Origin: Planctomycetota bacterium
GTDB taxonomy: Bacteria; Planctomycetota; MHYJ01; JACQXL01; JACQZI01
Length of the DNA stretch: 64,000 nt
NCBI GenBank assembly: GCA_016207825.1
Contig: JACQZI010000005.1
Span: 1 to 64,000, forward strand
Direction of reading: 5' to 3'
The notes under the pieces are model-generated. The model was given only the letters and a program-made list of their open reading frames with translations, did not search any database and was not told the DNA's origin. Below, piece by piece: positions 496 to 56,464 of this stretch. The translations under genes and the position numbers were made by a program. The stretch's first letter is position 1. Each line of letters starts with the position of its first letter.

Positions 496-1056
496 TTAAG
501 GTGTTACCGCCACGACAACCGGATTGCCAAACGGGCCCATCCGTTTCCTGCGGTCAAACCATTGCGCCTTATAGGCAAGAGTTACCGTTGTCACATTCCC
601 CACATTATGAATATAGGGTGAGTTAGTATCCAGCGCCAGAAAACGAACCGTCTTCGGACCGGTGCATTTCGCCTCGATTATTGGCGGCGGCTCGCTCAAG
701 ACAATCTGTTCCGAAAGCGGCGTCCGGGTCAGGTCAGGCACGGTAATCCCCAAATCTTCCCTTTGGGCATCGGTCATAGCCGGATAGGATTGAATCCTTT
801 TGACCAGACTGCGTATCTCCGATTCCAAGATATCCCGGGTATCGTCCTTGGTTTCCGCCGCGGCTTTAGCCGCATTTTGCGCCGCCACGTGTGCCGCCAG
901 CGCCATTTGCCAGGCAGCGGAATCCGCACTGACGTTAACCACATCAGCCGGAGTAAGCCCATATGCGGCCGGTGCTCCAACGACTTTCATCACAAAGTTA
1001 CCCTGCCAGATGTTAAAATCACCATCTGGGTCTGGCATATAATCTTTCTTTGGCAT
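496..1056 (-). CDS. Small modular protein, paralogue of the 24602 gene
   Basis: 186 residues, no signal peptide, function not recognised. It resembles the 24602 protein in three places: an N-terminal FNxWQGNFV/FNFQGNLV motif followed by a hydrophobic stretch and an Ala-rich helix, a central helix (SEIRSLVKRIQSYPAMT versus KEIRAFVKTWLMFNPMV) with a shared LTVRDV/ITVPDL step, and a C-terminal half that looks like a beta-sandwich (TVTLAYKAQWFDRRKRMGPFG). A strong ribosome site (AAAGGAGGAAT) abuts the ATG at 1056. It lies downstream of the RCC1 secreted protein and a 21-bp repeat array. Its paralogue is likewise preceded by a secreted-protein gene and a 21-bp array, so the order secreted protein - array - this family is conserved. 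The two proteins are divergent enough that both are probably maintained. Confidence 0.8.
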   Translation of the reverse strand: MPKKDYMPDPDGDFNIWQGNFVMKVVGAPAAYGLTPADVVNVSADSAAWQMALAAHVAAQNAAKAAAETKDDTRDILESEIRSLVKRIQSYPAMTDAQREDLGITVPDLTRTPLSEQIVLSEPPPIIEAKCTGPKTVRFLALDTNSPYIHNVGNVTTVTLAYKAQWFDRRKRMGPFGNPVVVAVTP

Positions 1057-1095
1057 ATTCCTCCTTTCTTATAATAATAAGGGCGGGATTTCTTT

Positions 1096-1284
1096 CCCCG
1101 CCTTCCGCAGCTATTTCCCCGCCCACCGGGGAACTTTCCCCGCCTTCCGTAGCTCTTTCCCCGCCCTCCGGGAAACACTCCCCGCCTTCCGCAGAACTTT
1201 TCCCGCCCTCCGGGAAACACTCCCCGCCTTCCGCAGAACTTTTCCCGCCTTCCGGGAAACAGTTCCCGCCCTCCGGGGCGGATT
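1096..1284 (-). repeat. Nine-unit 21-bp tandem array between two operon genes
   Basis: Nine units of exactly 21 bp. On the plus strand each unit begins ccccgcc or tcccgcc, and two sub-types alternate (one with ccgcagaac, one with ccgggaaac), giving a 42-bp higher-order period. Read on the operon (minus) strand, the second type can fold as TTTCCCG / CGGGAAA around a 5-nt loop. Because 21 is a multiple of three, several frames stay open; one minus-strand frame gives alternating heptads with Gly-Arg-Arg and Cys. It occupies the same relative place as the unrelated-sequence arrays at 24227 and 46946. Confidence 0.85.
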
Positions 1285-1306: not shown

Positions 1307-3643
1307 TTAAGGCGGCACGCCGATAGCCGTGGCGTTTTCGAATTCTAAATAAGAGCTATCCGCTATCTTCACCCCGGCGCGGGTGCCGCCGCTGATATCG
1401 CTCGCCAGTTTATACACGATGTAATAGGTCTTGGGAGTGGTTGTTACCTGCCAGCGGTTCATGTTGAGGTAACACGTGCCGTTGGTAAAATTACCTTTGC
1501 TGATAAAAGTATCACCTGCGTCCCAGAAGCCGTTAGTATTCGTATCGCACCAGACCTGGACTTCTATCTTACAGGGTGTATTAACGCCGGTAACACCTTT
1601 ATCTATGCGGAAACGTCTCCAGCGGGTAGTGCCAGCGCCTATTTGCATATTGAACTTGACATAACAAACAGATTGCCCCATTCTTACCGGAGTATTGCCG
1701 TTGGTAAGCATCGTCCATGCGGCTGTGGTGACAAGACTGGCAGGGTCCTCGTTTACAGTAATTGTAATTGCCTTGGAATCAGATAGTGTTTTAGACGTGG
1801 CGGTAAAAGTGACCATATAATTCCCGGATTGCGTACCGGAAGGCGTCCAATTAAATATGCCGCTGGCCAGGTTTAACGTTGCCCCTGTCGGAGTTGCGGT
1901 CATAGTATACGTTATCGGGTCACCATCCGGGTCATTAGCAGAAAGCGTAAAGGTTAATAATTGTTTTTCATTTATGCTCTTGTTTCCCGGCGAGGTCAGA
2001 ACCGGCGGCCTGTCAACTACATATCCCACATACCAATAGGCTAATTGCGGGGCAACCGTGGTATTAGAGGTGGACAAGTTCGCCCGGAGTTTTATACCGG
2101 TGATACTGGTGAATGTCGCCGGATAAGCAGATGAAAGATTAGTCCCAGAAGAAACATTAGCAACCAATAGTGAATTATTCGACGAGCTTAAGACATCCAC
2201 GGTCAAGAGTGTGTTAGCCGGCACACTGATAGTATAAGTCAAAACGCCCCAGGAAGAGACCACGGACGGCGCAATGGCTGAACCCAGGTAACTACCCGGA
2301 GTAAGAAATGGCGCCGTTCCCACCACAGCCTTCCAGGTAGTCAAGGCGCCGATTTGGACAGGCGAATAGCGGTCGGTATTTGTCCCATCGCCCAAACTAC
2401 CCAAACCATTATACCCCCAAGCCCAGAGCGTGCCGTCGGTCTTGACGGCTAAGTTGTGCTGAGTTCCGCAGGCAACTTGTTTCCAAGTGGTAGCGACGCC
2501 GACCTGGACAGGCGAGGTGCGTTGGGTTGTCGTCCCATCACCTAATTGGCCAGAGTTATTCCATCCCCACGCCCAGAGCGTGCCGTCGGCCTTGACAGCT
2601 AAGGTGTGCGCAGCCCCGCAGGCAACCTTACTCCAGGTGGTCAATGCCCCGATTTGGACAGGCGAGGTTCTTTGAGTGTATGTCCCATCGCCCAATTGGC
2701 CATTGAAATTATAACCCCATGCCCAGAGCGTGCCATCCGTCTTGATTGCCATGGTGTAAACATTCCCGCAGGCAACCTGTTTCCAGGTCGTCCCGGCTAC
2801 CTGGACCGGTGAAAGCCGCTGGGTAGTCGTCCCATCGCCTAATTGACCCTGTCCATTATAACCCCAAGCCCAGAGCGTTCCGTCAGTCTTTATTGCTACG
2901 GTATGATTACCTCCGCAAGCGACCTGTTTCCAGGTCGTTCCGGCTATTTGGACCGGGGACGATCTATTAGTCTGTGTCCCGTCGCCTAATTGGCCATTCC
3001 AATTATAACCCCAAGCCCAGAGCGTGCCGTCGGTCTTGACGGCTAAGGTGAAAGCATTCCCACCGGCGACCTGTTTCCAAGTGGTGAGCGCCCCGACCTG
3101 GACGGGCGAGTTTCTTTGAATGGTCGTCCCATCACCCAACTGGCCATTAGAATTAAAACCCCAAGCCCAGAGCGTACCGTCGGTCTTGATTGCCATGGTG
3201 TGCTGAGCCCCGCAGGCGACCTTACTCCAGGTGGTCAATGCTCCGATTTGAGTTGGCGTGTTTTTATCAAGATTGTAGAGATAAGCCCCATCTCCGTCGT
3301 ATTGGGCTGTTCCGCCATGGCCAAGCTGTCCGTATTCACCATAGCCCCAAGACCAGAGCGTGCCGTCTGTCCGCGGGCAGAGGCTGTGGTAAGCGTTTGC
3401 TGCGAGGATAAAGGCGGGCGTCTCCTGGCTGGTGTCTGATGATAGTGTGACCTCGGCAGAGCCGGCAGTGGCAACAGTATTCGTAAATGTGCCGTCGGTA
3501 AAGACGGTTTCGGACCAGCTGTCGGCAGCCAAATCCCAAGCACCAAATCCCAAACTCCAAATAATTAATAATACACAAAATCCAAAATTCCCCCGACGTG
3601 CGCCAGGACTACACTTCGCTTCGCAAACTTTCGTGTTACGCAT
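1307..3643 (-). CDS. Secreted RCC1-repeat protein with the shared C-terminal GVP domain
   Basis: 778 residues. The ATG at 3643 is preceded by GGAGGTGATTT. Residues 19-40 form a hydrophobic signal region cleavable near LAA-D41. A short motif ADSWSETVFTDGTF shared by sibling proteins follows. Residues about 80-440 hold seven RCC1-type repeats, each with DGTLWxWG and a GQLGDGT core, which predicts a seven-bladed propeller. A cadherin/He_PIG-type Ig domain lies at about 548-636 (NDPDGDPITYTM). The last 140 residues are the shared C-terminal domain (MGQS, RWRRFRIDKG, DTNTNGFWDAGD, YLEFENAT, GVPP). It is the main product of the module A operon; the small gene at 3659 ends 15 bp upstream. RCC1 repeats are usually interaction scaffolds; the ligand is unknown. 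Confidence 0.9.
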   Translation of the reverse strand: MRNTKVCEAKCSPGARRGNFGFCVLLIIWSLGFGAWDLAADSWSETVFTDGTFTNTVATAGSAEVTLSSDTSQETPAFILAANAYHSLCPRTDGTLWSWGYGEYGQLGHGGTAQYDGDGAYLYNLDKNTPTQIGALTTWSKVACGAQHTMAIKTDGTLWAWGFNSNGQLGDGTTIQRNSPVQVGALTTWKQVAGGNAFTLAVKTDGTLWAWGYNWNGQLGDGTQTNRSSPVQIAGTTWKQVACGGNHTVAIKTDGTLWAWGYNGQGQLGDGTTTQRLSPVQVAGTTWKQVACGNVYTMAIKTDGTLWAWGYNFNGQLGDGTYTQRTSPVQIGALTTWSKVACGAAHTLAVKADGTLWAWGWNNSGQLGDGTTTQRTSPVQVGVATTWKQVACGTQHNLAVKTDGTLWAWGYNGLGSLGDGTNTDRYSPVQIGALTTWKAVVGTAPFLTPGSYLGSAIAPSVVSSWGVLTYTISVPANTLLTVDVLSSSNNSLLVANVSSGTNLSSAYPATFTSITGIKLRANLSTSNTTVAPQLAYWYVGYVVDRPPVLTSPGNKSINEKQLLTFTLSANDPDGDPITYTMTATPTGATLNLASGIFNWTPSGTQSGNYMVTFTATSKTLSDSKAITITVNEDPASLVTTAAWTMLTNGNTPVRMGQSVCYVKFNMQIGAGTTRWRRFRIDKGVTGVNTPCKIEVQVWCDTNTNGFWDAGDTFISKGNFTNGTCYLNMNRWQVTTTPKTYYIVYKLASDISGGTRAGVKIADSSYLEFENATAIGVPP

Positions 3644-3658: not shown

Positions 3659-3871
3659 TCATACGGCGGTTTTCTTCCAGTTCACTAAACAGCCATTTTT
3701 AAATAAATAATGTTCTTTGGAATTAGTTTGCGGGAAGAGATAGATCCATTCTTCTGAAACAGGTTCAGAATCTTTCTTGGGTTTAAGCCATTTAGCCACG
3801 GGCTTGCCGCGTAATGCCATAATATCATCAGTGGTCAGGGGAAGCATTTTGTTTAATGTTGTTTTATTCAT
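3659..3871 (-). CDS. Small WKKTAV-ended protein, first gene after the sigma-54 promoter
   Basis: 70 residues, no signal peptide. The paralogue at 44662 shares LTTDDIMALRGKPVAK / LSTDDLVVLRGKPMAK, an EEW(I/V)Y strand, EHY(L/F)F and the end W-K-K-T-A-V. Each intact copy is the first gene downstream of a sigma-54 promoter. Decayed copies lie at 19137 and 51728, directly ahead of other secreted-protein genes. Ribosome site AAGGAGAACTGTT precedes the ATG. The family is not one I recognise. Constant position ahead of secreted proteins with the GVP domain suggests a chaperone, escort or regulatory role, which is inference only. Confidence 0.8.
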   Translation of the reverse strand: MNKTTLNKMLPLTTDDIMALRGKPVAKWLKPKKDSEPVSEEWIYLFPQTNSKEHYLFKNGCLVNWKKTAV

Positions 3872-3892
3872 AACAGTTCTCCTTGTAAGTAT

Positions 3893-3945
3893 ATAAGTTG
3901 ATACGATAATAAGTTTATAAGGAGCATAGCCTCGTATTAACTTAT
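3893..3945 (-). promoter_or_regulatory. 14-bp inverted repeat in the 5' leader of the module A operon
   Basis: The arms ATAAGTTGATACGA (3893-3906) and TCGTATTAACTTAT (3932-3945) pair with one wobble. They lie between the predicted start site (about 3977) and the small gene. The leader is almost the same as that of module B (19063-19115), including the arms. Module A carries an extra 14-bp duplication upstream of it. It could be an RNA hairpin in the leader or the scar of a recent module duplication. Confidence 0.55.
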
Positions 3946-3987
3946 CACCTTATTTCATCACCTTATTTCTTATCAACTATAATGTAT

Positions 3988-4003
3988 AGCAAATATCGTG
4001 CCA
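3988..4003 (-). promoter_or_regulatory. Sigma-54 (-24/-12) promoter, module A
   Basis: Reads TGGCACG-ATAT-TTGCT on the minus strand, a full match to the sigma-54 consensus TGGCACG-N4-TTGCW. The predicted start is near 3977. It drives the small gene at 3659 and the RCC1 protein. The divergently placed flank ends at the sigma-54 activator gene. Confidence 0.92.
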
Positions 4004-4107
4004 ATAATTCGCAATAATGGAGGAGAACTATAAATTATTTAATGCCTTGTAAATAAAGGGGTTAGAAAGCGAAAACAAGTCAAATAAGAATGTTTTTTGT
4101 ATAATGA

Positions 4108-4126
4108 GCGTGGTAAAAATTCACGC
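4108..4126. promoter_or_regulatory. Inverted repeat, candidate activator-binding site of module A
   Basis: GCGTG-N9-CACGC right after the activator stop codon, centred about 114 bp upstream of the -24 element. No T-run follows, so a terminator is less likely. Modules B and C have unrelated inverted repeats at the same distance. Confidence 0.45.
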
Positions 4127-4128: not shown

Positions 4129-6156
4129 TTACCGTTTGGTAACATTAGAGATGGTTATCTTTAATTGTTTTATCTTTTTGGAAAGAGTTGAACGGTCGCT
4201 GTTAAGTTGACAAGCCGCTTTGGTGATATTTCCATTGTTCTTTTTAAGAACTTCTATAATAATACTCTTTTCTATTTCATTACGTAATTCTTTAAGAGGA
4301 CTATCCGATTTGATAGCAGATTGGTTCATATTAATGTAACTCCGGATTGGGTTAGATAGCATTGATTCTTCAATAACATTAACATCCGGATACAATGCGC
4401 AGATGCGTTTTATCTCGTTTTCTAGTTCGCGGATATTGCCGGGCCAGGGGTAGGCGGTGAAAAGCGCTAACGCGCTGGGGGATATGTCAGCCCCGACGTT
4501 CGTCGGGACTTCGCTTCGCTCCGGAATTTCCTTACGGGAAAGAGAGCATTTTCGTAAAAAATGCTGAGCGAGGATGGGAATGTCATCCCCGCGGTCGCGA
4601 AGAGGAGGAAGATTGATTATAATAGTATTGATACGATAAAACAGGTCTTCCCTGAATAACTTCTGCTTAACCATCTGCTCAATAGTCTGATTAGAGGCAA
4701 AGACAAAGCGGGTATCAACCGGAATAGGTTTTTGTCCACCCACTCTCCAGAGAAGTTTTTCTTCCATAACCCTAAGTAATTTTTGTTGCATAGACGGAGA
4801 CATATTAGAAATCTCGTCTATGAAAAGCGTTCCGCCTGAAGCGAGTTCAATATAACCTTTTTTATCTTCTATAGCGCCGGTAAAAGCGCCTTTGGCATGG
4901 CCGAAAAGCGTACTTTCAACAAGCGTTTCGGGAAGCACCCCGCAATTGAACGGTAAATAGGATTTGTTTATACGCAGGCTATTATTATGTATGGCATTGG
5001 CAATAAGTTCTTTTCCGGTTCCTGTTTCTCCCTGGATTAAAACCGGCATATCCGTAGGAGAAATCTTTTCTATAAGATGATAAATTTCTTGCATTGAGGG
5101 GGAATTGCCGACAATGGTATATTTATTAACCGAATTTTCGTAACGGTCATCAAGGGTTTGAACCAATATCTGCGGGATAAACCTGGATTCATGTTTGGTT
5201 TTACCCTGTAATTGTTGATAGAGCCTGTCAAATTCCCTGGTTTTTTCATACAGCCAAATCGTATCCAGTTTAGATAAAACAGGCTTTATCCTGTTTTCTA
5301 TAGAGCTGGCTTTACGCGACAGCCCTTTAAGAGAATAGCATTTGCATAAAAGGAATCCGGCTTCACAGGCAAGGTTATTTAATTTCAAGCATAATGCTTC
5401 TTTCATTATGTCCGGCAAAATCCGAAACGCGGAATCCAACTGGTTTTCCAAAAGGTCAATGGCAGCAAGATGTATTTTCGCTTCAAGGATGCCGCGCGGG
5501 AAATCCGCTTGCTCGCATGCTTTAAGGGATATCTGAAAAGACTGGCGTGCCTGGCGATAGTCTTTTATTGACATCAGATACTCGCCTTTAATGTGCATAT
5601 AATCCATGAAGTATATCTCGCCGGACGGGGACAGCAGGGAAGGTGAAAGTTTTTGTTCAATAATTTGCCCTGCTTTCCCCAAATCGTTTTTATATAAATA
5701 ACAATAAGCTAAATTAATCAGGGTCGAAACATACATTTCCTTATTCATTGGAAACGTGTAACTCGTGAGTTTTTGGCAGTATTGCTCTACTTTATGGAAT
5801 TGGCTTAAAGCCTGATTGATATGCATCATAACCAGGAAATTAAGCCCCATCTTAAACGAAGCATACGCGACGCGAACTTGTTCAAGATTATGTTTTGAAG
5901 CGGTTAAGTATGCTTTATAGAAAGCATCCAGCGAGCGGGCATATTCCGCAAGGCTAAAACAAGCAAATCCCAGATGGCAATATAAAAGGTGTTCTTCAAA
6001 AGGCGAATAAGAAAGGGAAGGGAGTTTCCTTAGCGCCTTTTCGCCCAAACGCTTGGCGTTATCCCAATCCTGTTTATCCAAGGCGGACCTAATTTGTTCC
6101 AGACAATCAGATAATGGTTTAGATTCTCTTCGTTCACTACGAGTGCGTTTTGGCAT
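4129..6156 (-). CDS. TPR-linked sigma-54-dependent transcriptional activator (module A)
   Basis: 675 residues from the ATG at 6156 (MPKRTRS). N-terminal residues of about 20-320 are helical TPR-like repeats in place of a receiver, PAS or GAF domain. Next comes an AAA+ sigma-54 interaction domain with Walker A GETGTGKE, the sigma-54 contact loop GAFTGA (GHAKGAFTGA), the GGTLFIDEI Walker B region and an R-finger segment LFREDLFYRIN. A Fis-type helix-turn-helix closes the protein (NNGNITKAACQLNSDRSTLS). The upstream-frame start at 6192 is rejected because a sigma-70 promoter overlaps it. It probably activates the promoter at 3988-4003 just downstream of its own gene. A linker segment after FLRK, including a palindrome at 4492-4507, differs completely from its two paralogues. 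Confidence 0.93.
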   Translation of the reverse strand: MPKRTRSERRESKPLSDCLEQIRSALDKQDWDNAKRLGEKALRKLPSLSYSPFEEHLLYCHLGFACFSLAEYARSLDAFYKAYLTASKHNLEQVRVAYASFKMGLNFLVMMHINQALSQFHKVEQYCQKLTSYTFPMNKEMYVSTLINLAYCYLYKNDLGKAGQIIEQKLSPSLLSPSGEIYFMDYMHIKGEYLMSIKDYRQARQSFQISLKACEQADFPRGILEAKIHLAAIDLLENQLDSAFRILPDIMKEALCLKLNNLACEAGFLLCKCYSLKGLSRKASSIENRIKPVLSKLDTIWLYEKTREFDRLYQQLQGKTKHESRFIPQILVQTLDDRYENSVNKYTIVGNSPSMQEIYHLIEKISPTDMPVLIQGETGTGKELIANAIHNNSLRINKSYLPFNCGVLPETLVESTLFGHAKGAFTGAIEDKKGYIELASGGTLFIDEISNMSPSMQQKLLRVMEEKLLWRVGGQKPIPVDTRFVFASNQTIEQMVKQKLFREDLFYRINTIIINLPPLRDRGDDIPILAQHFLRKCSLSRKEIPERSEVPTNVGADISPSALALFTAYPWPGNIRELENEIKRICALYPDVNVIEESMLSNPIRSYINMNQSAIKSDSPLKELRNEIEKSIIIEVLKKNNGNITKAACQLNSDRSTLSKKIKQLKITISNVTKR

Positions 6157-6163
6157 GGTTCCA

Positions 6164-6192
6164 TTTATACAAAAAGAAGGGGCGACTGTCAA
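6164..6192 (-). promoter_or_regulatory. Near-consensus sigma-70 promoter of activator A, leaderless
   Basis: TTGACA (6187-6192), 17-bp spacer, TATAAA (6164-6169) on the minus strand. Only 7 bp separate the -10 box from the ATG at 6156, so the mRNA should start at or within a base or two of the start codon. Confidence 0.85.
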
Positions 6193-42445: not shown

Positions 42446-42453
42446 ATACCAGT

Positions 42454-44608: not shown

Positions 44609-44624
44609 TGGCACGTTATTTGCT
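44609..44624 (+). promoter_or_regulatory. Sigma-54 (-24/-12) promoter, module C
   Basis: TGGCACG-TTAT-TTGCT; only the 4-bp spacer differs from the other three. Predicted start near 44635, with a 27-nt leader to the small gene. The long hairpin leader of modules A and B is absent. Confidence 0.92.
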
Positions 44625-45473: not shown

Positions 45474-46823
45474 ATGGGTAAATTAACCATTGGTGTTCTT
45501 GTCATCGTCTTTATCATCTCTGGCTCTCTCCACGCCGAAACGTTTATTGAAAACTTTTCGACCACCACCAACAAAGACGCCGGCAACACTACGGCTAACT
45601 GGGATACCGCAACCGGTCTTTTAAAACTTCCGGGAAGCGGTGCGACATCCGAAAAACCTTTAAGCACGAATACATTCCCTACTTCATCCCTTGCCGCTGT
45701 TTATGAAATAGGTTGGCGATTTATCCCTCAAGTCAATGGTCAAATCACCGCCTTAGGCAGATATGATGATGCGTCTCATAATAATACTATTATTACGTTG
45801 TGGAACGATTCGGGCGGACAACTGGCCCAGGTAACGGTGGTAAACAGCGCCGGATGGTCATGGGCGGCCTTAGGTACACCGGTCAATGTAACGGCCGGCA
45901 CTGCTTACCGGGTAAGCCTTTGGTGTTCGACTGGCTATAAATACGGCGCATGGGCTCAACCACAAATCAGAGGAAATATCCAAATAACCTCATATTGTTA
46001 TCTTGTGAATACCCATGCGTATCCTAACCTTACGGGGACAGGCTATATGTACGGAGTCCCTGATATAGAATTCACTGTTGGTGGCGGTTACCAAACACCT
46101 AAAACCGGACAATCTACAAAAATCAATACAACCTTCGATACCATTCAGGCGGTTAACCTGTCCGTTTCAGGTACTCTGCCGGCGAATACCGCCATTACTT
46201 ATGAAATCACCGCCAACGCCGGGACAAACTGGTATCAAATCACGCCGACCGCGCAAGGGAATGAATTTATTATTCCTCAAGTCGGCAGGGGAAACGACCT
46301 TAGGTGGCGCGCGAATTTATCTACTGCTAATACCAACGTTACGCCGTCCTTGGACCAATTAATAATCACTTATTATACAGGCAGCGCTTTAGTCACCACC
46401 ACCAACTGGACGGGTTTGGTTAATACGAATCCGATTAAAATGGGTCAATCAATTGCTTATATCAAGTTTGATGCCAAAACCGATTCAGGAACCGCATGTT
46501 GGAAGCGTTTTCGTGTTGATAAAGGGCTGAAAACATACACAAACTCTGCCTGCCCGGATAATAAGATTGAAGTCCAGGTTTGGTGTGATACAAATACCAA
46601 CGGCTTCTGGGATACCGGCGATACGTTTATCGCCAAAGGTAATTTTACTAACGGCACTTGTTACCTCAATATGAACCGCTGGCAGGTAACGACCACCTCT
46701 AAAACATATTACATCGTGTATAAGCTTGCTAATGATATTGGAGGTGGTCAACGTGCCGGGGTAAGCGTGAAAGATAGTAGTTATCTTGAGTTCGAGAATG
46801 CTACATGTGTAGGTGTTCCGTAA
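45474..46823 (+). CDS. Secreted DUF4082-like protein with the shared C-terminal GVP domain
   Basis: 449 residues. Signal peptide 1-20 (LVIVFIISGSLHAET). A DUF4082-like beta domain about 75-200 (VYEIGWRFIPQVNGQITALGRY, GTAYRVSLWCSTGYKYGAW), a beta linker about 210-310 (LSVSGTLPANTAITYEITAN), and the 140-residue C-terminal domain (MGQSIAYIKF, WKRFRVDKGLKTYT, DTNTNGFWDTGDTF, YLEFENATCVGVP). AAAGGAGC precedes the ATG. The shortest of the seven family members. Its 3' flank is the same repeat as after the 21663 gene. Confidence 0.88.
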   Translation: MGKLTIGVLVIVFIISGSLHAETFIENFSTTTNKDAGNTTANWDTATGLLKLPGSGATSEKPLSTNTFPTSSLAAVYEIGWRFIPQVNGQITALGRYDDASHNNTIITLWNDSGGQLAQVTVVNSAGWSWAALGTPVNVTAGTAYRVSLWCSTGYKYGAWAQPQIRGNIQITSYCYLVNTHAYPNLTGTGYMYGVPDIEFTVGGGYQTPKTGQSTKINTTFDTIQAVNLSVSGTLPANTAITYEITANAGTNWYQITPTAQGNEFIIPQVGRGNDLRWRANLSTANTNVTPSLDQLIITYYTGSALVTTTNWTGLVNTNPIKMGQSIAYIKFDAKTDSGTACWKRFRVDKGLKTYTNSACPDNKIEVQVWCDTNTNGFWDTGDTFIAKGNFTNGTCYLNMNRWQVTTTSKTYYIVYKLANDIGGGQRAGVSVKDSSYLEFENATCVGVP

Positions 46824-46944: not shown

Positions 46945-48207
46945 GTGTTCTCGCAAGGGTATAACCTGTGCCCTCAAGGGCAAAACTTGTGCTCTCAAGA
47001 GCAGAACTCGTACCCTCAAGAGCAGGACTTGTGCCCACAAGGGCAGAACCTGTGCCCGCAATGGCAAAACCTGTGCTCTCAAGGGCAGAACTTGTGCCCG
47101 CAAAGGCAAAACCTGTGCCCGCAAGGGCAGAACTCGTGCCCCGAAATTCTTCGGGGTACCCCCGACCGTAAAAAACTGCTGGAAAACAAAGATTCTAACC
47201 AACCCGCATGCTGTCTCTTGGCTCCGATAATCAAGCCGTTTAGCGATACTTTGAAGGAAGCGTGCAAAAATAAAAACCAGGTGATTAAAGACCGGGCCAA
47301 TCAAGTTCGCTTGAGCCTTTTGGCTTCGGTTAAATCAAAAATCATTTACATTTCCGGCAGTGCCTTACATATAAAGGATATAATAGGCAACGATTCCCCG
47401 ATAATCAATTTTAACGATATAACAGATTTGCCATCTATCTGTTCGAAATGCAATATCGCGGTCAATCAGGCTGGAGATAAAATCCTGTTTGTCGGCTATG
47501 ACCGGGAAAAGAACAGGGATATTTATAAGCTGGATATAACAGAGAAAAAATGTTATCGGCTTACAGAAGATACGGCAGATGATTTTGCCCCTTCTTGGAG
47601 TCCGGACGGAACTAAAATCACATTTACTTCAACTCGGGATGGCAATGATGAAATATATGTAATGGATGCGGACGGAAAAAATCAAAAGCGTCTTACGGAA
47701 AATAAAACTAATGATAGCATGCCTGTCTGGAGGCCGGATGGCACATTCATTGCTTTTATTTCCGACCGTGATGGAACAAACACCATTTACACGATGAATC
47801 CTGACGGGACAAACCAGCAGAAAGTTCTTAGCCTTAAAGCGGATAATATTTCCGCTCTCGGAATGCATCCGGATGGGACTAAAATCGCATTTGCCTCCAA
47901 CCGGAGCGGAAAATATGAAATATACACAGCCGGAGGAATGGGCGATGAAATAACACAGATAACCAAATGTCCGGAAGAGTTTGAATTCGTCGGCAGTCCA
48001 ATCTGGAGTCCGGACGTCACGCAAATCGCGTTTGCCGCAAAGGTAAAAGGGCAACATGAGATTTATATAATGCCTGCCCGTCCGTCAGGCGGGAATGTGG
48101 ACGGCTCAAATATGCGCAATATAAGCAATAATCCAGAAGCTGACGATCTTTCGCCCGCTTGGATTCCATCCGATTTAAAAAAGCTTTCTATCTTATTTTC
48201 AGAATGA
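46945..48207 (+). CDS. TolB-like propeller fused behind the 21-bp heptad array
   Basis: 420 residues from GTG 46945, right after AAAGGAGG. Residues 1-67 are Cys-containing heptads from the array; residues about 75-115 (PIIKPFSDTLKEACKNKNQV, IKDRANQVRLSLLA) match the region just before the propeller of the 28280 protein; then PD40/TolB blades (WSPDGTKITFTSTRDGNDEI, DADGKNQKRLTEN). The signal peptide and HEAT-like start of its relative are gone, so the array has replaced the N-terminus. A palindrome-encoded insert (PARPSGGN) interrupts one late blade. Either a real fusion expressed from the array start or a 5'-truncated pseudogene. Stop overlaps the next ATG (ATGA). Confidence 0.65.
   Translation: MFSQGYNLCPQGQNLCSQEQNSYPQEQDLCPQGQNLCPQWQNLCSQGQNLCPQRQNLCPQGQNSCPEILRGTPDRKKLLENKDSNQPACCLLAPIIKPFSDTLKEACKNKNQVIKDRANQVRLSLLASVKSKIIYISGSALHIKDIIGNDSPIINFNDITDLPSICSKCNIAVNQAGDKILFVGYDREKNRDIYKLDITEKKCYRLTEDTADDFAPSWSPDGTKITFTSTRDGNDEIYVMDADGKNQKRLTENKTNDSMPVWRPDGTFIAFISDRDGTNTIYTMNPDGTNQQKVLSLKADNISALGMHPDGTKIAFASNRSGKYEIYTAGGMGDEITQITKCPEEFEFVGSPIWSPDVTQIAFAAKVKGQHEIYIMPARPSGGNVDGSNMRNISNNPEADDLSPAWIPSDLKKLSILFSE
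46946..47134 (+). repeat. Nine-unit 21-bp tandem hairpin array
   Basis: Nine exact 21-bp units. Units 1-5 and the last units equal those of the 24227 array, with six internal units missing, so this is a contracted (or the other an expanded) copy. Here the CPQGQNL-type frame runs without a stop into a TolB-like propeller. Confidence 0.85.
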
Positions 48208-49835
48208 TTAATAAACTAAAACGTTTTATTGACTCTATCGAAAACACCAAGCTTGGTTTCGGCTGGTGGATAATTACTTTTTCATGCATCATTCTGGTCC
48301 GAAATTTCCTCGAAGGGATTTTGGAGATTGATAAAACCATCGGGTTTATAGATGACCCCTATGCATCTATAATGAGGTTTTTTAGCCACTATCCCCTTTT
48401 CTATCTTAGCCAGTTTTTCATCCTGGTAATCCTGCTCCGGTTGCTTACAAAGGAGCGGATAGAAAAGATATCCAAAACAGTCATAGTATTCTGGATTATC
48501 ACCTGGTTTCCGCCTGTTTTCGACTTCTTTTTCTCCGGAGGCAAGGGGGAAAACGCCGTATACTTTTTCACGGTCAATGAAGTCTGGAATTTCTTTATTA
48601 ACTGCGCCAATCCGCTGGTAAGTTTTCCCAAAAACGCACCCCCGGGCATCCGGATAGAGTTTGTGTTGGTTAGTTTATTAGCCATTATCTATGTTTTTAC
48701 CAAGACTAAAAAACTGATTAAATCAATTGCCGGTGCGATTCTATTCTATTTGTCTTTTACCGTTTACGCCGCTGGTTTCCTGGCTATATTGGCGCATATA
48801 TGGAATGCAATTTTTCCGCAACTTCCTCCGCTTAATACCGGAACGCCTTTTGAGAAAATATATAACGACAGCCCCAGTTTGATAATCAGGTCAGACCAAA
48901 GGGTCTCTTTAATTTTCCTGCTCGTTATAATGGTTGCGATATTTATCTGGTATTTCTTGTATGACCGCAATAAGTGCCTGGCGCTTTTAAAGAATATAAG
49001 GCTAACCAGATGCATTCACTTCTGCGGGTTAGTCCTTGGAGGAATACTATTAGGCTATCTTGCGGAAAGAAATAATTTACTTGGAGTATTTAGCAACCCG
49101 ATAGACTATCTTGCCTGCATAGGGCTATGCCTGGCAATCTTTTTTGCCATCCAGTCTTTGATAGTCGTGAATGATATCTTTGACATTGAAAGCGACCGTA
49201 TCTCCAATCCAAACCGGCCGTTAACACAGGGAATTATTCCATTGGATGAATATAAAACTATTGGATTGGTTTATTTCCTGTTAATGGGTTATTTTGCGGC
49301 TAATATTTCATATCTTTCTCTGGTAATCACCCTTTTCTTTAGCGCTTTATACCTGATTTATTCTATTCCGCCTTTCAGGTTAAAACGTATTTTCCCGTTT
49401 AATATGATGGTGATAGGAATAAACTCTTTGGTGGCGATGCTATTGGGTTATGCTTTGTTGGGAGGCTCAAAAACGGTAGAGAAATTTCCTAAGGAGCTTA
49501 TGATACTGGTCCCGCTAAGTTTTTCCCTCGCGGCTAATATTATTACCATTAAAGATGTTAAAGCTGATAAGCAAGCAGGAGTAATCACCCTGCCGGTTTT
49601 GTTAGGGGAAAAGATAGGGAGGATAATTATTGCTTTTTTGGTTTTAGCGGCTTATCTGGCTGTTCCGTTAATTTTAGGCATACCTCAATTATGGCTGGCT
49701 TCTATCCTGTTTGGAATACTGGCTGGCTTCTGGATTTTAAGAAAGAAATGGCAGGAAACGCCGTTTTTTATCAGTTATTTTATTTATTTAGCAATCGTAT
49801 TCTATGCGATTGGCATGAGCAGTAAATATATTTAA
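48204..49835 (+). CDS. Membrane protein with a C-terminal UbiA-type prenyltransferase domain
   Basis: 543 residues from the ATG at 48204. About five helices in the first 250 residues of unknown type (a Yip1-like or generic membrane region), then a UbiA domain at about 270-543: VVNDIFDIESDRISNPNRPL carries the first Asp-rich prenyl-diphosphate motif (NDxxDxxxD), and IKDVKADKQAGVITLPVLLG the second. It should transfer an isoprenoid chain onto an aromatic or polar acceptor in the membrane; the acceptor is not predictable. Placement inside a secreted-protein cluster, with translational overlap to the TolB-like gene, is odd for a quinone enzyme and hints at lipid modification of a surface component. 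Confidence 0.85.
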   Translation: MINKLKRFIDSIENTKLGFGWWIITFSCIILVRNFLEGILEIDKTIGFIDDPYASIMRFFSHYPLFYLSQFFILVILLRLLTKERIEKISKTVIVFWIITWFPPVFDFFFSGGKGENAVYFFTVNEVWNFFINCANPLVSFPKNAPPGIRIEFVLVSLLAIIYVFTKTKKLIKSIAGAILFYLSFTVYAAGFLAILAHIWNAIFPQLPPLNTGTPFEKIYNDSPSLIIRSDQRVSLIFLLVIMVAIFIWYFLYDRNKCLALLKNIRLTRCIHFCGLVLGGILLGYLAERNNLLGVFSNPIDYLACIGLCLAIFFAIQSLIVVNDIFDIESDRISNPNRPLTQGIIPLDEYKTIGLVYFLLMGYFAANISYLSLVITLFFSALYLIYSIPPFRLKRIFPFNMMVIGINSLVAMLLGYALLGGSKTVEKFPKELMILVPLSFSLAANIITIKDVKADKQAGVITLPVLLGEKIGRIIIAFLVLAAYLAVPLILGIPQLWLASILFGILAGFWILRKKWQETPFFISYFIYLAIVFYAIGMSSKYI

Positions 49836-49851: not shown

Positions 49852-51717
49852 ATGGGAAAGAAATGGATAATAGGAAATTCCCCTCTATCAAGAGGGGTTA
49901 GGGGTGTGTTATTTCTCTGTGTTCTTTGTGCCTTTGTGGTGCCGTCTTTGGCGAGCCTCGCCCCGATGGGCGGGAATCTCTACGCCGATAGCTGGTCACA
50001 AACCACCTTCCCGGCCGGGACGGGTGTTTTTACCAGCACCCAACCGGCTAACGGAAATGCCGATGCTACACTATCCAATGCTTTTAACGTGGATTCCGGA
50101 ACAGGTGCGGATGGCGCGTTTGATTCTTCCACATATAACGGAAGTTCTATTGCCGGTATTTCCGGAACCGCTCCTAATATAACTATAAATACCAGCAATG
50201 CAACTAAACTGGGCACGTATAACTTCACCACATTTACCATTGCCGCAGGGCATACGGTTACAGCTAATGGAACTAACTTTTTAATTATTAAAGCAACCGG
50301 AAATGTAACGATTAGCGGGACTTTAAATGGCAGCGGCAGTAATGGACAAGATGGTTCCACTACCGGACAAGCGGCAGGCGGTGGCGGCGGCGGCGCAGTG
50401 AAAATATTGTCCGCCGGAAATATTACCATAAATGCCGGTGGATTTATTCTGGCTAATGGGGGAAACGGAGGAAATGTTGATAATAACTACCCCAATACTC
50501 CAGGCGGGCCTGGTGGTCCGGGTGGTGGCACCGGCGGCGCGGGATGTGGCTACGGCGGAGTATCAGGCGGCAGACCAGGAACTGGATCCGGTCCCGGTGG
50601 CGGTGGCTGGACTGCTGGCGGTGGCGGCGGCGGTTATGGTGGCGCTGGAGGAGTTGGTGGCGGCTCGGCAGGAGTTACTTATGGAGCGGCTGATTTAGCC
50701 ACCTTATACGGAGGCAGCGGCGGCGGCGGCGGATGCACAGGTAACGGAGGCGGAGGCGGCGGCAGTGGCGGAAGCATCTTCTTAACCTCTGGTAATGTAA
50801 CTATTTCAGGTTTTGTCAGGGCAAATGGCGGTAATGGCGTGGCTTCTACTAACGGAGGAGGAGGCGGCGGAAGAATCAGAGTGGAATCGCCCACGATTAC
50901 CGGTTTAGCCAATTGCACTGCCAACGGCGGTACCGGGGTCCCTAACAACGGCGCGGCTGGCACCATTTCATCTTCTACAGGAGGAGGCGGTTATGCGGCT
51001 TCAGGAACTTATCTTTCCCCGCTAATTAATCCTTCCGGACTTGTTTCCTGGGGTGCATTGACATATACTAAAAACACACCTGCCAATACAACGCTTACTA
51101 TCGATGTTCTGAAAGCTGATGATAATTCTGTTTTATCTAGTAACGTTACTTCCGGCACCAATTTATCATCCCTTATTCCAGCGTATACATTTATTAAACT
51201 TAGAGCTAATTTTTCATCTACAAATCCTTCCAACACTTCAACACTTTCAGATTGGGGAATAAATTATACGGGTGGAGGCACAACTGTAACCACCTCAAAC
51301 TGGACGGATTTGACTCAAGGGAAAGCCGTTCAAATGGGACAATCAACCGCTTATGTGAAATTTACCATGAAAACCGAATCCGGGACGACCCGCTGGAAAC
51401 GTTTTCGCATTGATAAAGGATTAAAAACATATACAAATATCGCCGCGCCGGACAGTAAAATAGAAATCCAGGTTTGGTGTGAAACTAGTGGCAATGGATT
51501 CTGGGATTCCGGAGATACGCTTATCAGTAAAGGCAACTTTGTTAACGGCACGTGCTGGCTTAATATGAAACGCTGGGAGATAACAACAACGCCTAAAACT
51601 TATTATATTGTATATAAACTCAAAGACGATATCGGTGGCGGACAACGTGCTGGAGTAAAAATAACTAATTCAAGTTATTTAGAGTTTGAAAATGCTACTT
51701 GCGTCGGCGTTCCTTAG
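49852..51717 (+). CDS. Glycine-rich secreted protein with the shared C-terminal GVP domain
   Basis: 621 residues; AAAAGGAGGAAATT before the ATG. The signal region contains SPLSRGVRGVLFLCVLCAF, encoded by a CCCCTCT...AGAGGGG palindrome and a TCTGTGTTCTTTGTGCCTTTGTGGTG-like repeat. Then ADSWSQTTFPAGTGVF, a beta domain, about 200 residues of Gly-rich sequence (about 170-370), the SWGALTYTKNTPANTTLTIDVL linker, and the 140-residue C-terminal domain ending CVGVP. Within it the calcium-like loop is ETSGNGFWDSGD. Probably a surface adhesin or matrix protein. Confidence 0.88.
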   Translation: MGKKWIIGNSPLSRGVRGVLFLCVLCAFVVPSLASLAPMGGNLYADSWSQTTFPAGTGVFTSTQPANGNADATLSNAFNVDSGTGADGAFDSSTYNGSSIAGISGTAPNITINTSNATKLGTYNFTTFTIAAGHTVTANGTNFLIIKATGNVTISGTLNGSGSNGQDGSTTGQAAGGGGGGAVKILSAGNITINAGGFILANGGNGGNVDNNYPNTPGGPGGPGGGTGGAGCGYGGVSGGRPGTGSGPGGGGWTAGGGGGGYGGAGGVGGGSAGVTYGAADLATLYGGSGGGGGCTGNGGGGGGSGGSIFLTSGNVTISGFVRANGGNGVASTNGGGGGGRIRVESPTITGLANCTANGGTGVPNNGAAGTISSSTGGGGYAASGTYLSPLINPSGLVSWGALTYTKNTPANTTLTIDVLKADDNSVLSSNVTSGTNLSSLIPAYTFIKLRANFSSTNPSNTSTLSDWGINYTGGGTTVTTSNWTDLTQGKAVQMGQSTAYVKFTMKTESGTTRWKRFRIDKGLKTYTNIAAPDSKIEIQVWCETSGNGFWDSGDTLISKGNFVNGTCWLNMKRWEITTTPKTYYIVYKLKDDIGGGQRAGVKITNSSYLEFENATCVGVP

Positions 51718-51786: not shown

Positions 51787-51816
51787 AATTATACACCTAT
51801 AAAAATGGAGATTTTT

Positions 51817-54105
51817 ATGCGCCACATGAAAGTTTGTAACTTTGGATTTTGGGGATTGATAATTATTTGGAGTTTAGCAATTGTAAATTGTGATTTGGGT
51901 GCCGATACCTGGCTGCAAACGACTTTTCCGCCCGAGACAGGAACGTTCAATAACACCTCGCCGGCTAACTCTGATAATGATATAATTCTTACCAGTTCAG
52001 TTGCGATTAATGTTGGTACCGGTTCTGATGGTGCAATAACCGTTGCCGCGGCAAAAAATATTAATACGGATACCATTGCCGCCGGCAGGACTGTCGCCGA
52101 TGGCTGGAACTCACGCGTTTCCGCCCTTACGGCAAATACAGCGACTCTTGTAGATGCACCACCGGCTAATACTTTTAACGTGGGGGATGAGGTTATTCTA
52201 ATATCACTTAAAGGGATATCCACTGCTTCTTCTAATGTCGGACTCTATGAATTTCTCCGCGTTCAATCGGTCGCAGGGAATATCCTAACTTTTACGACCA
52301 ATAAGGTCAATTGGTATGGGGATGGAGCTAACGATACCAATGTTGGAACGAATCAAAAAGTAATGGTCCAGCGTGTTCCGAATTATACAGATGTAACGAT
52401 TAATTCAGGCGGATCGCTCACTTGTAATGCTTTTAATGGAACGAAAGGCGGAATTCTGGCATTTCGCGCTAAAGGAACCGTGACAGTTAATGTTTCCAAT
52501 GGAATTAGTGCTACTGGAAAAGGATTTGTAGGAGGCACCGGCGTCGCTTATACCGCAAATGCCGGAGGCGGCGAATCCTATAACGGAACCGGCGGAATAG
52601 GCGGCCCTTATAACGGCGGAGGAAGCCCCGGCCAGGGCGGCGGCGGCGGCGGCGGCGATAATAACGGCTCTGTTTTTGCTGGAGGCGGTGGAGCGCTTGG
52701 TTCCGGTGGCGGTGGCGGCGGCGGGGCAGGAGCAGGCGGCGGTTATATTGCCAGAGGAGGAGGCGGCGGAGGCGGCGGACACGGGAATAACAGTTTCGGA
52801 ATGGGCGGCGCTGGCATTAACTCGGGAGGAAACGGGACAACAACATCAGGAGGCGCCGGCGCAATCGCGGCAAGGTCAGGCTCCAGCGATAACGGCGGCG
52901 GAGCGGGCGGCGGCGGTTATGACGGCAGGGCGGATTCTTCCGGACTCAATACACGGGCGTATATGGGCGGCGGCGGCGGCGCAGGCGGCGGCGCGACTAA
53001 CTTAAATAATTTAGGCGACGCCAAAACAGGCGCTAACGGAGGAATCGGAGGCGGCATCATTATTATTTATGCATCCTTCATTAATATTACAACGGGAGCT
53101 TCTATGACCGCCAATGGCAACAACGGCGCGAATGGTGCAAGCGGCACATATGGACGAGGAGGAGGCGGCGGGGGCGGTGCCGGAGGTTCTATTATAATAT
53201 TAGCAACTCAAATAATCAACTCAGGCAACATTACTGCTGATAAAGGGAACGGAGGAACAACGACGGATGGATACACCGGCGGTGCCGGCGGCAATGGCAG
53301 AATCTACGCACGCTATGTTTCTTTCAGCGGTAATAATCCTACCCCGAATTACTATAGCCTTGCAATACCTTATATTACGCCTGGTAGTTATATTTCCCCG
53401 GCGCTTATTCCAACTGGCGTTTCTTATTGGGGTGTCTTAAAATATTCGGTAACATCACCCACTAATACCGCCTTAACCGTGGATGTAATCAGCTCATCTA
53501 ACAATTCATTATTAGTTGCAAATGTGCCTTTTGGAACAGACCTTAAAGCCGCTTACCCTGCGACATTTGTAAATATTACGGGAATAAAACTTAGGGCGAA
53601 TTTCTCTGCCGCAGATACAACCAAAACCCCGTCTTTGTCTTACTGGCAGCTGGAATACGCCACGGGCACTGCAGTCACCACCACTAACTGGACGGATTTG
53701 CTTAATGGGAAATCAATTCAAATGGGGCAATCAATCGCTCATGTTAAATTCAATATGAAAACCGAGGCAGGAATAACCAAATGGCGCCGTTTTCGGGTTG
53801 ATAAAGGAGTAAAAACATATACCAATATCGCCTGCCCGGATAGCAAAATAGAAGTCCAGATCTGGTGTGAAAATACCGGTAACGGATTCTGGGACATTGG
53901 CGATACGTTTATCTCTAAAGGCATCTTCGGCAATGGAATATGCTATCTTAATATGAAAGGCTGGGAGGTAACAACGACATCAAAAACATATTATATTGTC
54001 TATAAGCTATCAGGGGATGTCGGCGGAGGACAGCGTGCCGGCGTTAAAATAACAGATAGCAGTTATCTAGAATTCGAAAACGCAACTTGCGTCGGCGTTC
54101 CTTAG
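51817..54105 (+). CDS. Glycine-rich secreted protein with the shared C-terminal GVP domain
   Basis: 762 residues from the ATG at 51817; the ATG at 51805 lies inside the ribosome-site region, which aligns with ATGGAGGTGATTT of the sibling genes. Signal region NFGFWGLIIIWSLAIVNCDLG, then ADTWLQTTF. A beta domain shared with the 19279 protein, including 116 identical bases (52027-52142), a Gly-rich tract about 235-460, linker and the 140-residue C-terminal domain ending CVGVP. Here the conserved GNFTNGT motif reads GIFGNGI. Domain order as in 19279, so they are close paralogues in different modules. Confidence 0.88.
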   Translation: MRHMKVCNFGFWGLIIIWSLAIVNCDLGADTWLQTTFPPETGTFNNTSPANSDNDIILTSSVAINVGTGSDGAITVAAAKNINTDTIAAGRTVADGWNSRVSALTANTATLVDAPPANTFNVGDEVILISLKGISTASSNVGLYEFLRVQSVAGNILTFTTNKVNWYGDGANDTNVGTNQKVMVQRVPNYTDVTINSGGSLTCNAFNGTKGGILAFRAKGTVTVNVSNGISATGKGFVGGTGVAYTANAGGGESYNGTGGIGGPYNGGGSPGQGGGGGGGDNNGSVFAGGGGALGSGGGGGGGAGAGGGYIARGGGGGGGGHGNNSFGMGGAGINSGGNGTTTSGGAGAIAARSGSSDNGGGAGGGGYDGRADSSGLNTRAYMGGGGGAGGGATNLNNLGDAKTGANGGIGGGIIIIYASFINITTGASMTANGNNGANGASGTYGRGGGGGGGAGGSIIILATQIINSGNITADKGNGGTTTDGYTGGAGGNGRIYARYVSFSGNNPTPNYYSLAIPYITPGSYISPALIPTGVSYWGVLKYSVTSPTNTALTVDVISSSNNSLLVANVPFGTDLKAAYPATFVNITGIKLRANFSAADTTKTPSLSYWQLEYATGTAVTTTNWTDLLNGKSIQMGQSIAHVKFNMKTEAGITKWRRFRVDKGVKTYTNIACPDSKIEVQIWCENTGNGFWDIGDTFISKGIFGNGICYLNMKGWEVTTTSKTYYIVYKLSGDVGGGQRAGVKITDSSYLEFENATCVGVP

Positions 54106-54181
54106 TGTAATAATTATCGCCGAAGTCCCGCCCCATGGCGTCGGGGTATAGGGGTGCCGTAATAACACATAAGAATTAATC

Positions 54182-56464
54182 ATGAGAATAAGTAATTGGA
54201 AATTGATTGTGGGCACGTTCTTTTTCCTTTGTGTTTTTGTAATTAATCATCTTCATGCCGATACCTGGTCGCAAACAACTTTCCCGATAGGGACAGGAGT
54301 ATTTAGCGATACCTCTCCGGCTGATTTTGACAATGATGTAAAACTAATCGGCACTCTTGTAATTGATGCCGGTAACGGTGCAGATGGACCTTGGACTATT
54401 TCCACATCTGTTAATATTAATGTGAATACCAATGGAAATGGTGGACGGACCGCACCTGATGGTATTAACTGGCAGGTCAATCAGAATGTTGTTTCAGGAC
54501 AGGCTGTTATATCATCAGGAATAGCCGTTCCTACCGGATTTGCCGTCGGTGATGAGATTATTATAATTAACCTCAAAGGCGCTTCCGGAAATTATGCTAA
54601 TGTCGGCTTATATGAATTCAAACGAATTTCTGTAGTTGCCGCTAATTCAATTACTGTCACTTCTAACTTGACTAATTCTTATGATGGAACAACCCAAAAA
54701 ATAATGGTCCAGCGAATTCCTAACTACACTAATGTAACAATTGATACAGGAGGTTCTTTGACCTGCAATGCATGGAATGGAACTCTTGGTGGCGTCCTCG
54801 CTTTTAGGGCAAACGGGACAGTAACAGTTAATGTGGCTAATGGAATTAATGCTAATGGTAAAGGGTTTACCGGGGGCACAGGCACAACATATGATGCTAA
54901 TGCCGGTGGAGGAGAATCTTATAACGGTGCAGCCGGCAGCGGAGGAAAAGGCAATCCCGTATCTGTAGGAAATAGCGGACAGGGTGGTGGTGGTGGCGCA
55001 GGTGATACTAACTCTGATGCGACCCAGCGTGCCGGAGGAACCGGTACAATCGGTTCCGGAGGCGGCGGGGCCGGCGCTTGCTGGACTAACAGTAACTTCA
55101 GCAGCTTTGCTGGAGGAGGAGGTGGTGGTGGACATGGTTCTGCTGGAGGAGGAGGCAGCAGCGGCTCTGCTAACGGACAAACACCAACCGGTTCTCAGGG
55201 AGGTAGTGGCTTAAACAATGGTGGCGCATCAGGTAGCACCAGTGGCGGGGCCGCACAATATGGCGGCGGCGGTGGTGGTGGCGGTTATGACGGCAGAGCA
55301 GATTCTTCCGGCCTTAATACACGGGCGTATATGGGCGGAGGCGGCGGTGCCGGCGGCGCGGTATGTAATACGAATTACGGTACTTCAAGAAATGGAGCTT
55401 CGGGCGGTTCAGGCGCAGGTATTATTTTTATCAGCGCTAATACGCTTAACACCGCTTCAGGGGCATCTATTACCGCCAACGGAGCTAATGGGTCTTCTGC
55501 GTCTACTGCAACAGGTTCATTTCCGGGTGCCGGAGGTGGCGGCGCCGGAGGCTCTATTATCTTATATGCAATGACGGTAAACAATAGTGGTAATATCATA
55601 GCTAATGGAGGCACTGGAGGAACGGTACAATATGCCGGCGGCAATGGCGGCGGAGGAAGAACATTTGCTGCGTATAATTCTTTTAATGGGGCTGCGCCTA
55701 CGCCTAATTATTCAAGCGGGACACTGCTAATGGGATACTCTTCATCCGGCACATACATTTCTCCTTTAATTAATCCAACCGGACTTGTTTCTTGGGGGGT
55801 CTTAACTTATACTAAAAATACACCTGCCGATACAACTTTTACCGTTGATGTCTTAAAAGCAGAAGATAATTCTGTATTAGTTGCCAATGTCGCTTCGGGG
55901 ACTAATTTGGCATCTGTTATTCTTAACTATACTCTTATTAAACTCCGGGCAAATTTAGCTACTTCGAATCCGATAGCAACTTCCACGCTTTCAGATTGGG
56001 GAATAATTTATACAGGAGGAGGCACAACTGTTACAACTACAAACTGGTCAGATTTGCTTAACGGAAAATCAGTTCAAATGGGCCAATCAATAGCTCACGT
56101 AAAATTTGAGATGAAAACTCTGTCAGGAACAGCGCGCTGGAAAAGATTTAGAATTGACAAGGGATTGAAAACATATACAAATATTGCTTGTTCTGATTCT
56201 AAAATAGAGACACAGGTGTGGTGCGAAAATAATAATAATGGTTTTTGGGATATCGGCGATACGTTTATCAGTAAAGGTAATTTTACCAATGGTACCGTGT
56301 ATCTCAATATGAACCGCTGGGAGGTAACGACAATACCTAAAACGTATTATATTGTATATAAACTCAAAAATGATATCGGCGGCGGACAACGTGCCGGCGT
56401 TAAAATAACCGATAGCAGTTATCTTGAGTTCGAGAACGCCATGTGTGTTGGAGTACCACCATAA
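54182..56464 (+). CDS. Glycine-rich secreted protein with the shared C-terminal GVP domain
   Basis: 760 residues. The signal region RISNWKLIVGTFFFLCVFVI resembles translations of the TTACCAATTTCCAATTA-type intergenic repeat. ADTWSQTTFPIGTGVF follows, then a beta domain, a Gly-rich tract about 235-460, a linker (SWGVLTYTKNTPADTTFTVDVL) and the C-terminal domain ending MCVGVPP. No clear ribosome site. Third of three Gly-rich paralogues in a row with the 49852 and 51817 genes, likely tandem duplicates. Confidence 0.88.
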   Translation: MRISNWKLIVGTFFFLCVFVINHLHADTWSQTTFPIGTGVFSDTSPADFDNDVKLIGTLVIDAGNGADGPWTISTSVNINVNTNGNGGRTAPDGINWQVNQNVVSGQAVISSGIAVPTGFAVGDEIIIINLKGASGNYANVGLYEFKRISVVAANSITVTSNLTNSYDGTTQKIMVQRIPNYTNVTIDTGGSLTCNAWNGTLGGVLAFRANGTVTVNVANGINANGKGFTGGTGTTYDANAGGGESYNGAAGSGGKGNPVSVGNSGQGGGGGAGDTNSDATQRAGGTGTIGSGGGGAGACWTNSNFSSFAGGGGGGGHGSAGGGGSSGSANGQTPTGSQGGSGLNNGGASGSTSGGAAQYGGGGGGGGYDGRADSSGLNTRAYMGGGGGAGGAVCNTNYGTSRNGASGGSGAGIIFISANTLNTASGASITANGANGSSASTATGSFPGAGGGGAGGSIILYAMTVNNSGNIIANGGTGGTVQYAGGNGGGGRTFAAYNSFNGAAPTPNYSSGTLLMGYSSSGTYISPLINPTGLVSWGVLTYTKNTPADTTFTVDVLKAEDNSVLVANVASGTNLASVILNYTLIKLRANLATSNPIATSTLSDWGIIYTGGGTTVTTTNWSDLLNGKSVQMGQSIAHVKFEMKTLSGTARWKRFRIDKGLKTYTNIACSDSKIETQVWCENNNNGFWDIGDTFISKGNFTNGTVYLNMNRWEVTTIPKTYYIVYKLKNDIGGGQRAGVKITDSSYLEFENAMCVGVPP

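Follow-up and report, generated by a model that had tools for sequence, protein, structure and literature searches.

In the NtrC family of sigma-54 activators, one-component enhancer-binding proteins (EBPs) such as NorR and PspF carry an AAA+ domain with a GAFTGA motif and a Fis-type helix-turn-helix (HTH), and the EBP gene lies beside a target with an upstream palindrome and a -24/-12 promoter. Adjacent one-component EBP/promoter pairs are known in D. vulgaris, with the DVU0569 promoter downstream from the EBP gene (PMC4641369). PEP-CTERM surface proteins, which share a C-terminal tail, are RpoN-dependent and under the kinase/response-regulator pair PrsK-PrsR (PMC9850573, PMC1569441). In the RRNPP(A) quorum-sensing regulators, a cytoplasmic tetratricopeptide repeat (TPR) sensor is fused to a DNA-binding regulator, with a short gene product nearby (PMC9765709). 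The present analysis concerns a stretch of 64,000 nucleotides from a Planctomycetota bacterium (the window; assembly GCA_016207825.1, contig JACQZI010000005.1, positions 1 to 64,000, forward strand). It contains three modules (A, B, and C), each with a TPR-AAA+-Fis activator gene, an adjacent sigma-54 promoter, a small-protein gene, and genes for surface proteins ending in a common domain, here called GVP. Each such module is probably an insulated one-component sigma-54 switch for surface proteins, and we put the probability of this reading at about 0.78.

On every sequence feature tested, the activators are NtrC-family EBPs: an AAA+ domain with Walker A and GAFTGA motifs, a Fis HTH, a predicted upstream site of their own, a -24/-12 promoter, and RpoN in the genome. 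They differ from the described one-component EBPs in the long TPR sensor, the predicted leaderless sigma-70 expression, and a common extra palindrome, and they form an array of 16 paralogs in which predicted private operators mostly come immediately after the activator stop codon. The PEP-CTERM system likewise combines RpoN and a Fis-type activator with a TGGCAC promoter and surface proteins with a common C-terminal domain; however, PrsR is a response regulator with a kinase, whereas here the activator would be TPR-gated and private to each cargo, and the C-terminal module is predicted to be all-beta, with ~143 residues, in contrast to the short PEP tail. An assignment of the activators to PrsR (TIGR02915) was rejected: the match covers the AAA+ and HTH part alone (303 bits vs. 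a cut-off of 502.6), and the N terminus is TPR, not a receiver. To our knowledge, RRNPP regulators have neither an AAA+ ring nor a dependence on sigma-54; the similarity to their TPR is weak (best Rap match E=3.5e-5), and the small protein here lacks an evident export signal and shows no covariation with the sensor. In a limited literature search, no TPR-gated, sixteen-fold, privately wired array was found.

Activators and their promoters

The source genome, of groundwater type (2.89 Mb, 42 contigs), has 16 members of the activator family. Three of these are in the window, at 4129-6156 (-, module A, 675 residues), 16868-18892 (+, module B, 674 residues), and 42454-44481 (+, module C, 675 residues). 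All three match Sigma54_activat (PF00158, E<=1.7e-63) and the Fis domain HTH_8 (PF02954, E<=8e-10), contain GAFTGA and a Walker A GETGTGKE, and give weak TPR matches. Within the set of 16, GAFTGA is replaced by GAFTDA in L073, L081, and L084, the L082 gene is clearly broken, and the L081 gene has an insertion yet is open. Perfect -24/-12 promoters accompany the window activators at 3989-4003 (-, TGGCACGATATTTGC) in A, 19018-19032 (+, TGGCACGATATTTGC) in B, and 44609-44623 (+, TGGCACGTTATTTGC) in C. An earlier, sequence-only reading of the window had described these activators with their GAFTGA motifs, the promoters, and small genes that are intact in A and C and decayed in B, and all of this stands. 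It had also spoken of three collinear copies, whereas module A has the opposite orientation to B and C and the genome has about sixteen; and its account of the promoters, right for the three linked to activators, misses a fourth perfect one at 12914, which has no adjacent activator.

The sequence TGGCACG(A/n)TATTTGC is the usual downstream neighbor of the activators, 119-146 bp from the stop codon in most modules and farther away at L075, L077, and in some relatives. Exact TGGCACNNNNNTTGCTAT sites occur 21 times in the genome (vs. four one-mismatch matches of the reversed control), and a one-mismatch search for sigma-54 promoters in the window gives 14 matches versus 3.6 expected. The genome has two RpoN-like loci, L160 (contig C24) and L161 (contig C6; 369 residues), the second of which adjoins two NtrC-type response regulators.

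Upstream of the activators themselves, TTGACA with a 17- or 18-bp spacer is present in 16 of 16 cases in this genome, with a TATA-like -10 box in 15, located 7-10 nucleotides before the start codon in 14. In the window, these are TTGACA-N17-TATAAA (6157-6192, -, A) and TTGACA-N17-TATAAC (16832-16867, +, B), both 7 nucleotides before the ATG, and TTGACA-N17-TATATT (42417-42453, +, C), 8 nucleotides before it. Open reading frames of 687 and 686 residues starting with TTG (MTTTPFFCIN... extensions) were rejected as artifacts because what they translate first is the sigma-70 promoter. Given established promoter geometry, the position of this promoter predicts a leaderless, constitutive activator mRNA that starts at or beside the start codon. 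Constitutive expression would place the control on activity and point to the TPR domain, which plausibly senses a protein or peptide partner.

Predicted module-private operators

Upstream of the near-identical sigma-54 boxes, a palindrome varies from module to module. In the window, the predicted operators are GCGTGAATTTTTACCACGC (4108-4126, -, directly after the activator stop) in A, TGTCAGATTTCCCTGACA (18897-18914, +) in B, and GTGTAGACTTTTTTCCACAC (44491-44510, +) in C; TGTAAACCGCAGTTTACA, TGTGTCTTTTTAGACACA, GTGTGGATTTTGTCCACAC, and others are found in the remaining modules. The symmetry about palindrome centers peaks at -113 from the promoter, with a mean of 5.38 out of 7 pairs versus a background of 3.86 (sd 0.43; ~3.5 standard deviations). 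The similarity between operators, which were picked automatically, follows that between six residues of the recognition helix: the Mantel r is 0.45 (P=2e-4, n=21), or 0.58 when only this genome is considered (n=16). It does not track that between other HTH residues (r=-0.02). The six correspond to base-contacting positions in Fis/NtrC. As judged from this covariation, the module-private part is the -113 palindrome with the HTH, and not the near-invariant sigma-54 box, so that the "matched" promoter of the sequence-only reading can be taken literally.

The activators of L072 and of L134 in genome G006 (another family of the same order) look like a pair of one specificity: both have recognition residues TRAGYR, their HTHs are 79% identical, and both have an operator of the form GTATA..TATAC. 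The TPR of L072 is 83% identical to that of L077 in the same genome, whose HTH and operator differ. Among orphan promoters, which have no activator gene before them, L087 carries the L077 operator and both L083 and L090 carry the L081 operator, each with a 13/14 match. The gene behind the L087 promoter encodes a surface/YD-repeat-like protein of 1049+ residues.

The palindromes usually begin within about 10 nucleotides of the stop codon, and they might serve as transcription terminators or as 3' stem-loops in the activator mRNA instead of operators. We regard this as highly improbable. The T run is inside the loop, with none after the stem; where 209-373 bp separate the stop codon and the promoter (L075, L077, L132b), the palindrome center is still at -110 to -114 from the promoter; the palindromes recur at the orphan promoters and at L071, where the activator lies elsewhere; and they covary with the recognition helix.

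Several points count against the modules being insulated switches. Single palindromes are mostly no better than shuffles, and single-palindrome statistics were replaced by the position-anchored and covariation tests given above. The palindromes at L076 and L084 are weak, the one at L080 is clear but off position, and the operators predicted from the HTH for L135, L137, and L140 are not above noise. In L071 the order is permuted (promoter, small protein, cargo, and then activator). An element at -64, common to all modules, could carry a shared control. Finally, the evidence for insulation comes entirely from sequence.

A common element at -64

This element is a 28-bp palindrome, TCCTAACcnCTTTATTTanAnnnnGTTA, that starts near -64 in all 21 activator-linked promoters (score 488 vs. 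272-288 in shuffled controls), between the operator and the promoter; it is at 4040-4065 (-) in A, 18957-18982 (+) in B, and 44548-44577 (+) in C. In classical sigma-54 systems, IHF bends the DNA between operator and promoter. Genome-wide, there are 21 matches to the element versus one in the control, and about half are at sigma-54 promoters. Other positions occur, for example before a clpC-like gene, which led us to reject it as a strict part of sigma-54 promoters; it looks therefore like the site of a general factor. Its near-fixed position in every activator-linked promoter, together with the nearly identical sigma-54 boxes, would agree with one shared regulon, where interchangeable activators act via the -64 element and all copies fire together. 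Such a regulon is unlikely, given that the recognition residues covary with the -113 palindrome and that the element is also found far from sigma-54 promoters. A receiver-domain NtrC-type regulator, L085:13824, has the same layout, with the promoter TGGCACGCTAATTGC 168 bp past its stop codon and a -64-like element; this promoter precedes a NuoE/NuoF-like oxidoreductase operon.

If the modules are insulated switches, the constitutively made activator would be kept inactive by its TPR domain or would wait on it. Binding of a partner, most likely a protein or peptide given TPR chemistry, would let the AAA+ ring assemble on its own operator, and DNA looping, perhaps aided by a protein bound to the -64 element, would bring the activator to the RpoN-polymerase. 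Only the surface proteins of the same module, and the orphan promoters with the same operator, would then be transcribed, the paralogs staying separate because operator and HTH differ. Since the HTH code and the operator lie within about 150 bp, they could be exchanged jointly, forming one specificity cassette, with gene conversion keeping the AAA+ core and the promoter/leader alike.

Mosaic evolution

Among paralogs, the mean pairwise identity is 77% in the AAA+ domain, 45% in the TPR, and 40% in the HTH. Between modules, DNA similarity is high in two regions, the AAA+ part and the sequence that starts with the first base of TGGCAC, and no module pair has blastn-level similarity over the HTH-operator stretch (about -330 to -25). 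In the pairs 4003/19018 and L082/L084, identity is 91-93% from the T of TGGCAC (position 0 or -1), with no blastn-detectable shared DNA in the ~300 bp upstream. The AAA+ tree (P=0.0035) and the TPR tree (P=0.0085) cluster by genome, whereas the HTH tree does not (P=0.37). The clearest example is L072, with its TPR close to that of L077 and its HTH and operator like those of L134 in G006. The simplest account of these patterns would be that gene conversion acts on the core and leader and that the HTH plus operator is exchanged or retained separately. The modules might further be self-diversifying, with the TPR and the HTH-operator cassette reassorting separately via the homogenized AAA+ core/promoter block; we see the chances of this as evenly balanced. 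If true, it would provide an individually addressable surface-protein repertoire without phase variation.

The sixteen natural paralogous Fis-type HTH/operator pairs come with an AAA+ core, a promoter box, and a geometry that are almost constant. The NtrC/Fis recognition code, and insulation after duplication, are therefore directly testable in them, and the array offers a ready supply of orthogonal sigma-54 parts. It also connects sigma-54 biology in uncultured Planctomycetota, which has been little studied, with a surface proteome that is large and recombining.

Related genomes

With a profile of the TPR part, relatives are detected in four of the 23 genomes of the class and in four of the 392 Planctomycetota genomes covered. 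All of them belong to one order, and the module arrangement was not found outside that order among the 392 genomes. The named relative from the TPR-profile search of genome contigs is one Planctomycetota groundwater metagenome-assembled genome. In G006 and G005, most TPR activators adjoin TGGCACGnTATTTGC-type sites in the same layout, and a small protein of the same family is beside four of them. The relatives carry different cargo, namely large surface proteins or lipoproteins (He_PIG, PKD, fn3) and pilin-like genes, the latter in one G006 module as read from its sequence. The GVP domain is found in neither G006 nor G005, weakly in G003, and twice in a same-genus genome. Since G006 and G005 have the switch without GVP, the conserved core is the activator, operator, and sigma-54 promoter, often with the small protein, and GVP is a lineage-specific cargo.

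The neighborhood comparison proposed with the sequence-only reading thus bears out the association of activators with sigma-54 sites and, at four activators, with the small protein, and fails for co-occurrence with the GVP domain, which had been held to be integral. That a functional unit duplicates agrees with the conservation of TPR activator, matched promoter, and surface protein in related genomes. That it diversifies as a whole is not supported: the modules are mosaics, with a shared AAA+ core and promoter/leader and with sensor and HTH-operator diverging separately.

Surface proteins and the GVP domain

As noticed earlier, one C-terminal domain is common to the window's surface proteins. 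Seven of them end in GVP (~143 residues, 69-80% identity to the copy in 45474-46823): in A, a secreted RCC1/Ig protein (1307-3643, -; GVP at 1313-1735); in B, a Gly-rich protein (19279-21606, +; GVP at 21175-21603) and a LamG/DUF2341 protein (21588-24125, +; GVP at 23676-24122); and in C, a DUF4082 protein (45474-46823, +) and three Gly-rich proteins (49852-51717, 51805-54105, and 54182-56464, all +). In a typical module, the small-protein gene is followed by one or several genes for surface proteins of very large size, either secreted or lipoproteins. Cargo proteins of this genome have an N-terminal signal, often a W(S/T)(Q/E)xTF motif, a variable middle (RCC1, LamG, DUF4082, or glycine-rich), and mostly GVP. 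A known sorting domain was considered and rejected, Pfam giving no match beyond weak GEVED/SdrD_B. The structural model is all-beta at moderate confidence (predicted local distance difference test, pLDDT, 67), with no match in the PDB at E<0.001. The strictly C-terminal position, conserved over varied passengers, suggests a sorting or anchoring role.

With 32 GVP matches in the genome (mean column identity 77%) and homogenized leaders, one broken activator gene, and one decayed small-protein gene, the array might be mainly an expanded, recombining surface-protein family in which the regulators hitch-hike without functional separation. We hold this to be rather unlikely, because at least 14 activators are intact, with diverged HTHs and covarying operators, and because the relatives keep the switch without GVP cargo.

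In this genome, a type IV pilin-like gene (N_methyl) has a sigma-54 promoter of the module type before it, and in G006 pilin-like genes are driven by one TPR-activator module (L089:15206, -, and L132:17296, -). The activator family may therefore have been used for pilus control earlier on.

The small protein

The small protein has 70 residues in A (3659-3871, -; family pattern PPL..D....GKP..K..P...W.Y....Y.F....W) and 82 in C (44662-44910, +); in B, an internal deletion has destroyed the frame of the gene (19137-19260, +). The genome has 11 matches, the decayed one included. Where present, the gene mostly comes first in its module, but it is missing or decayed in six of 16 modules, and so is not the constant component it had been thought to be. 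The family has no match in Pfam, NCBIfam, or the PDB, and no evident signal peptide; the AlphaFold model has a pLDDT of 46. A BamE/SmpA-like fold looked right by eye and was rejected, with no Pfam BamE match in 10 members and an hhalign probability of 1.7% against E. coli BamE.

The position of the gene beside activators in this genome, G006, and G005, the binding of proteins or peptides by TPR domains, and the weak similarity to Rap-type TPR regulators are what one could cite for a private ligand or feedback inhibitor of the neighboring TPR-activator. That role is doubtful, and no support for a private TPR ligand comes from the divergence of the small protein, which does not track that of the TPR within the genome (r=0.07, P=0.27, n=10); nor does it suit the six modules where the protein is missing or decayed. 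The small protein may instead help cargo export as a cytoplasmic factor shared by the modules, or act in feedback generally.

Other features of the window

The orphan sigma-54 promoter at 12914-12928 (+) lies before an operon at 12942-16804 (12914-16804 with the promoter) for three DOMON/fn3-type proteins and a DUF5777 beta-barrel. The shared element is at about 12858-12887, and the upstream half-sites are unlike those of modules A-C. Far upstream it has the sequence CATTAA..TTAAATGATAC; a promoter on contig C25 (L074:9799) has a similar one, which suggests another sigma-54 regulon.

In the long 5' leaders of modules A and B, the stretch from the promoter to the small protein (3880-3990, -, and 19040-19140, +) contains an imperfect inverted repeat, GTTAATACGA...TCGTATCAAC, possibly a riboregulatory hairpin. 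Tandem repeats with a 21-bp period adjoin the surface-protein genes of all three modules (1092-1277, 24227-24548, and 46954-47141), and the repeat units of the last two, ..TGTGCCCGCAAGGGCAAAACC, are similar. After the cargo of A and B are genes for proteins of ~190-230 residues starting with D.DF...NF (496-1056, -, and 24596-25294, +), without Pfam match; a protein like this pair also follows the activator module L133 in G006. Inside module C, 48159-49835 encodes a UbiA-like prenyltransferase (by eye), with a homolog directly after the small protein in module L073. The open reading frame 34482-37700 is chimeric, with an IS110-type transposase-like start followed by Sel1-like and fn3/Ig-type surface domains, and an intergenic 44-bp tandem repeat (about six copies) is at 59881-60152.

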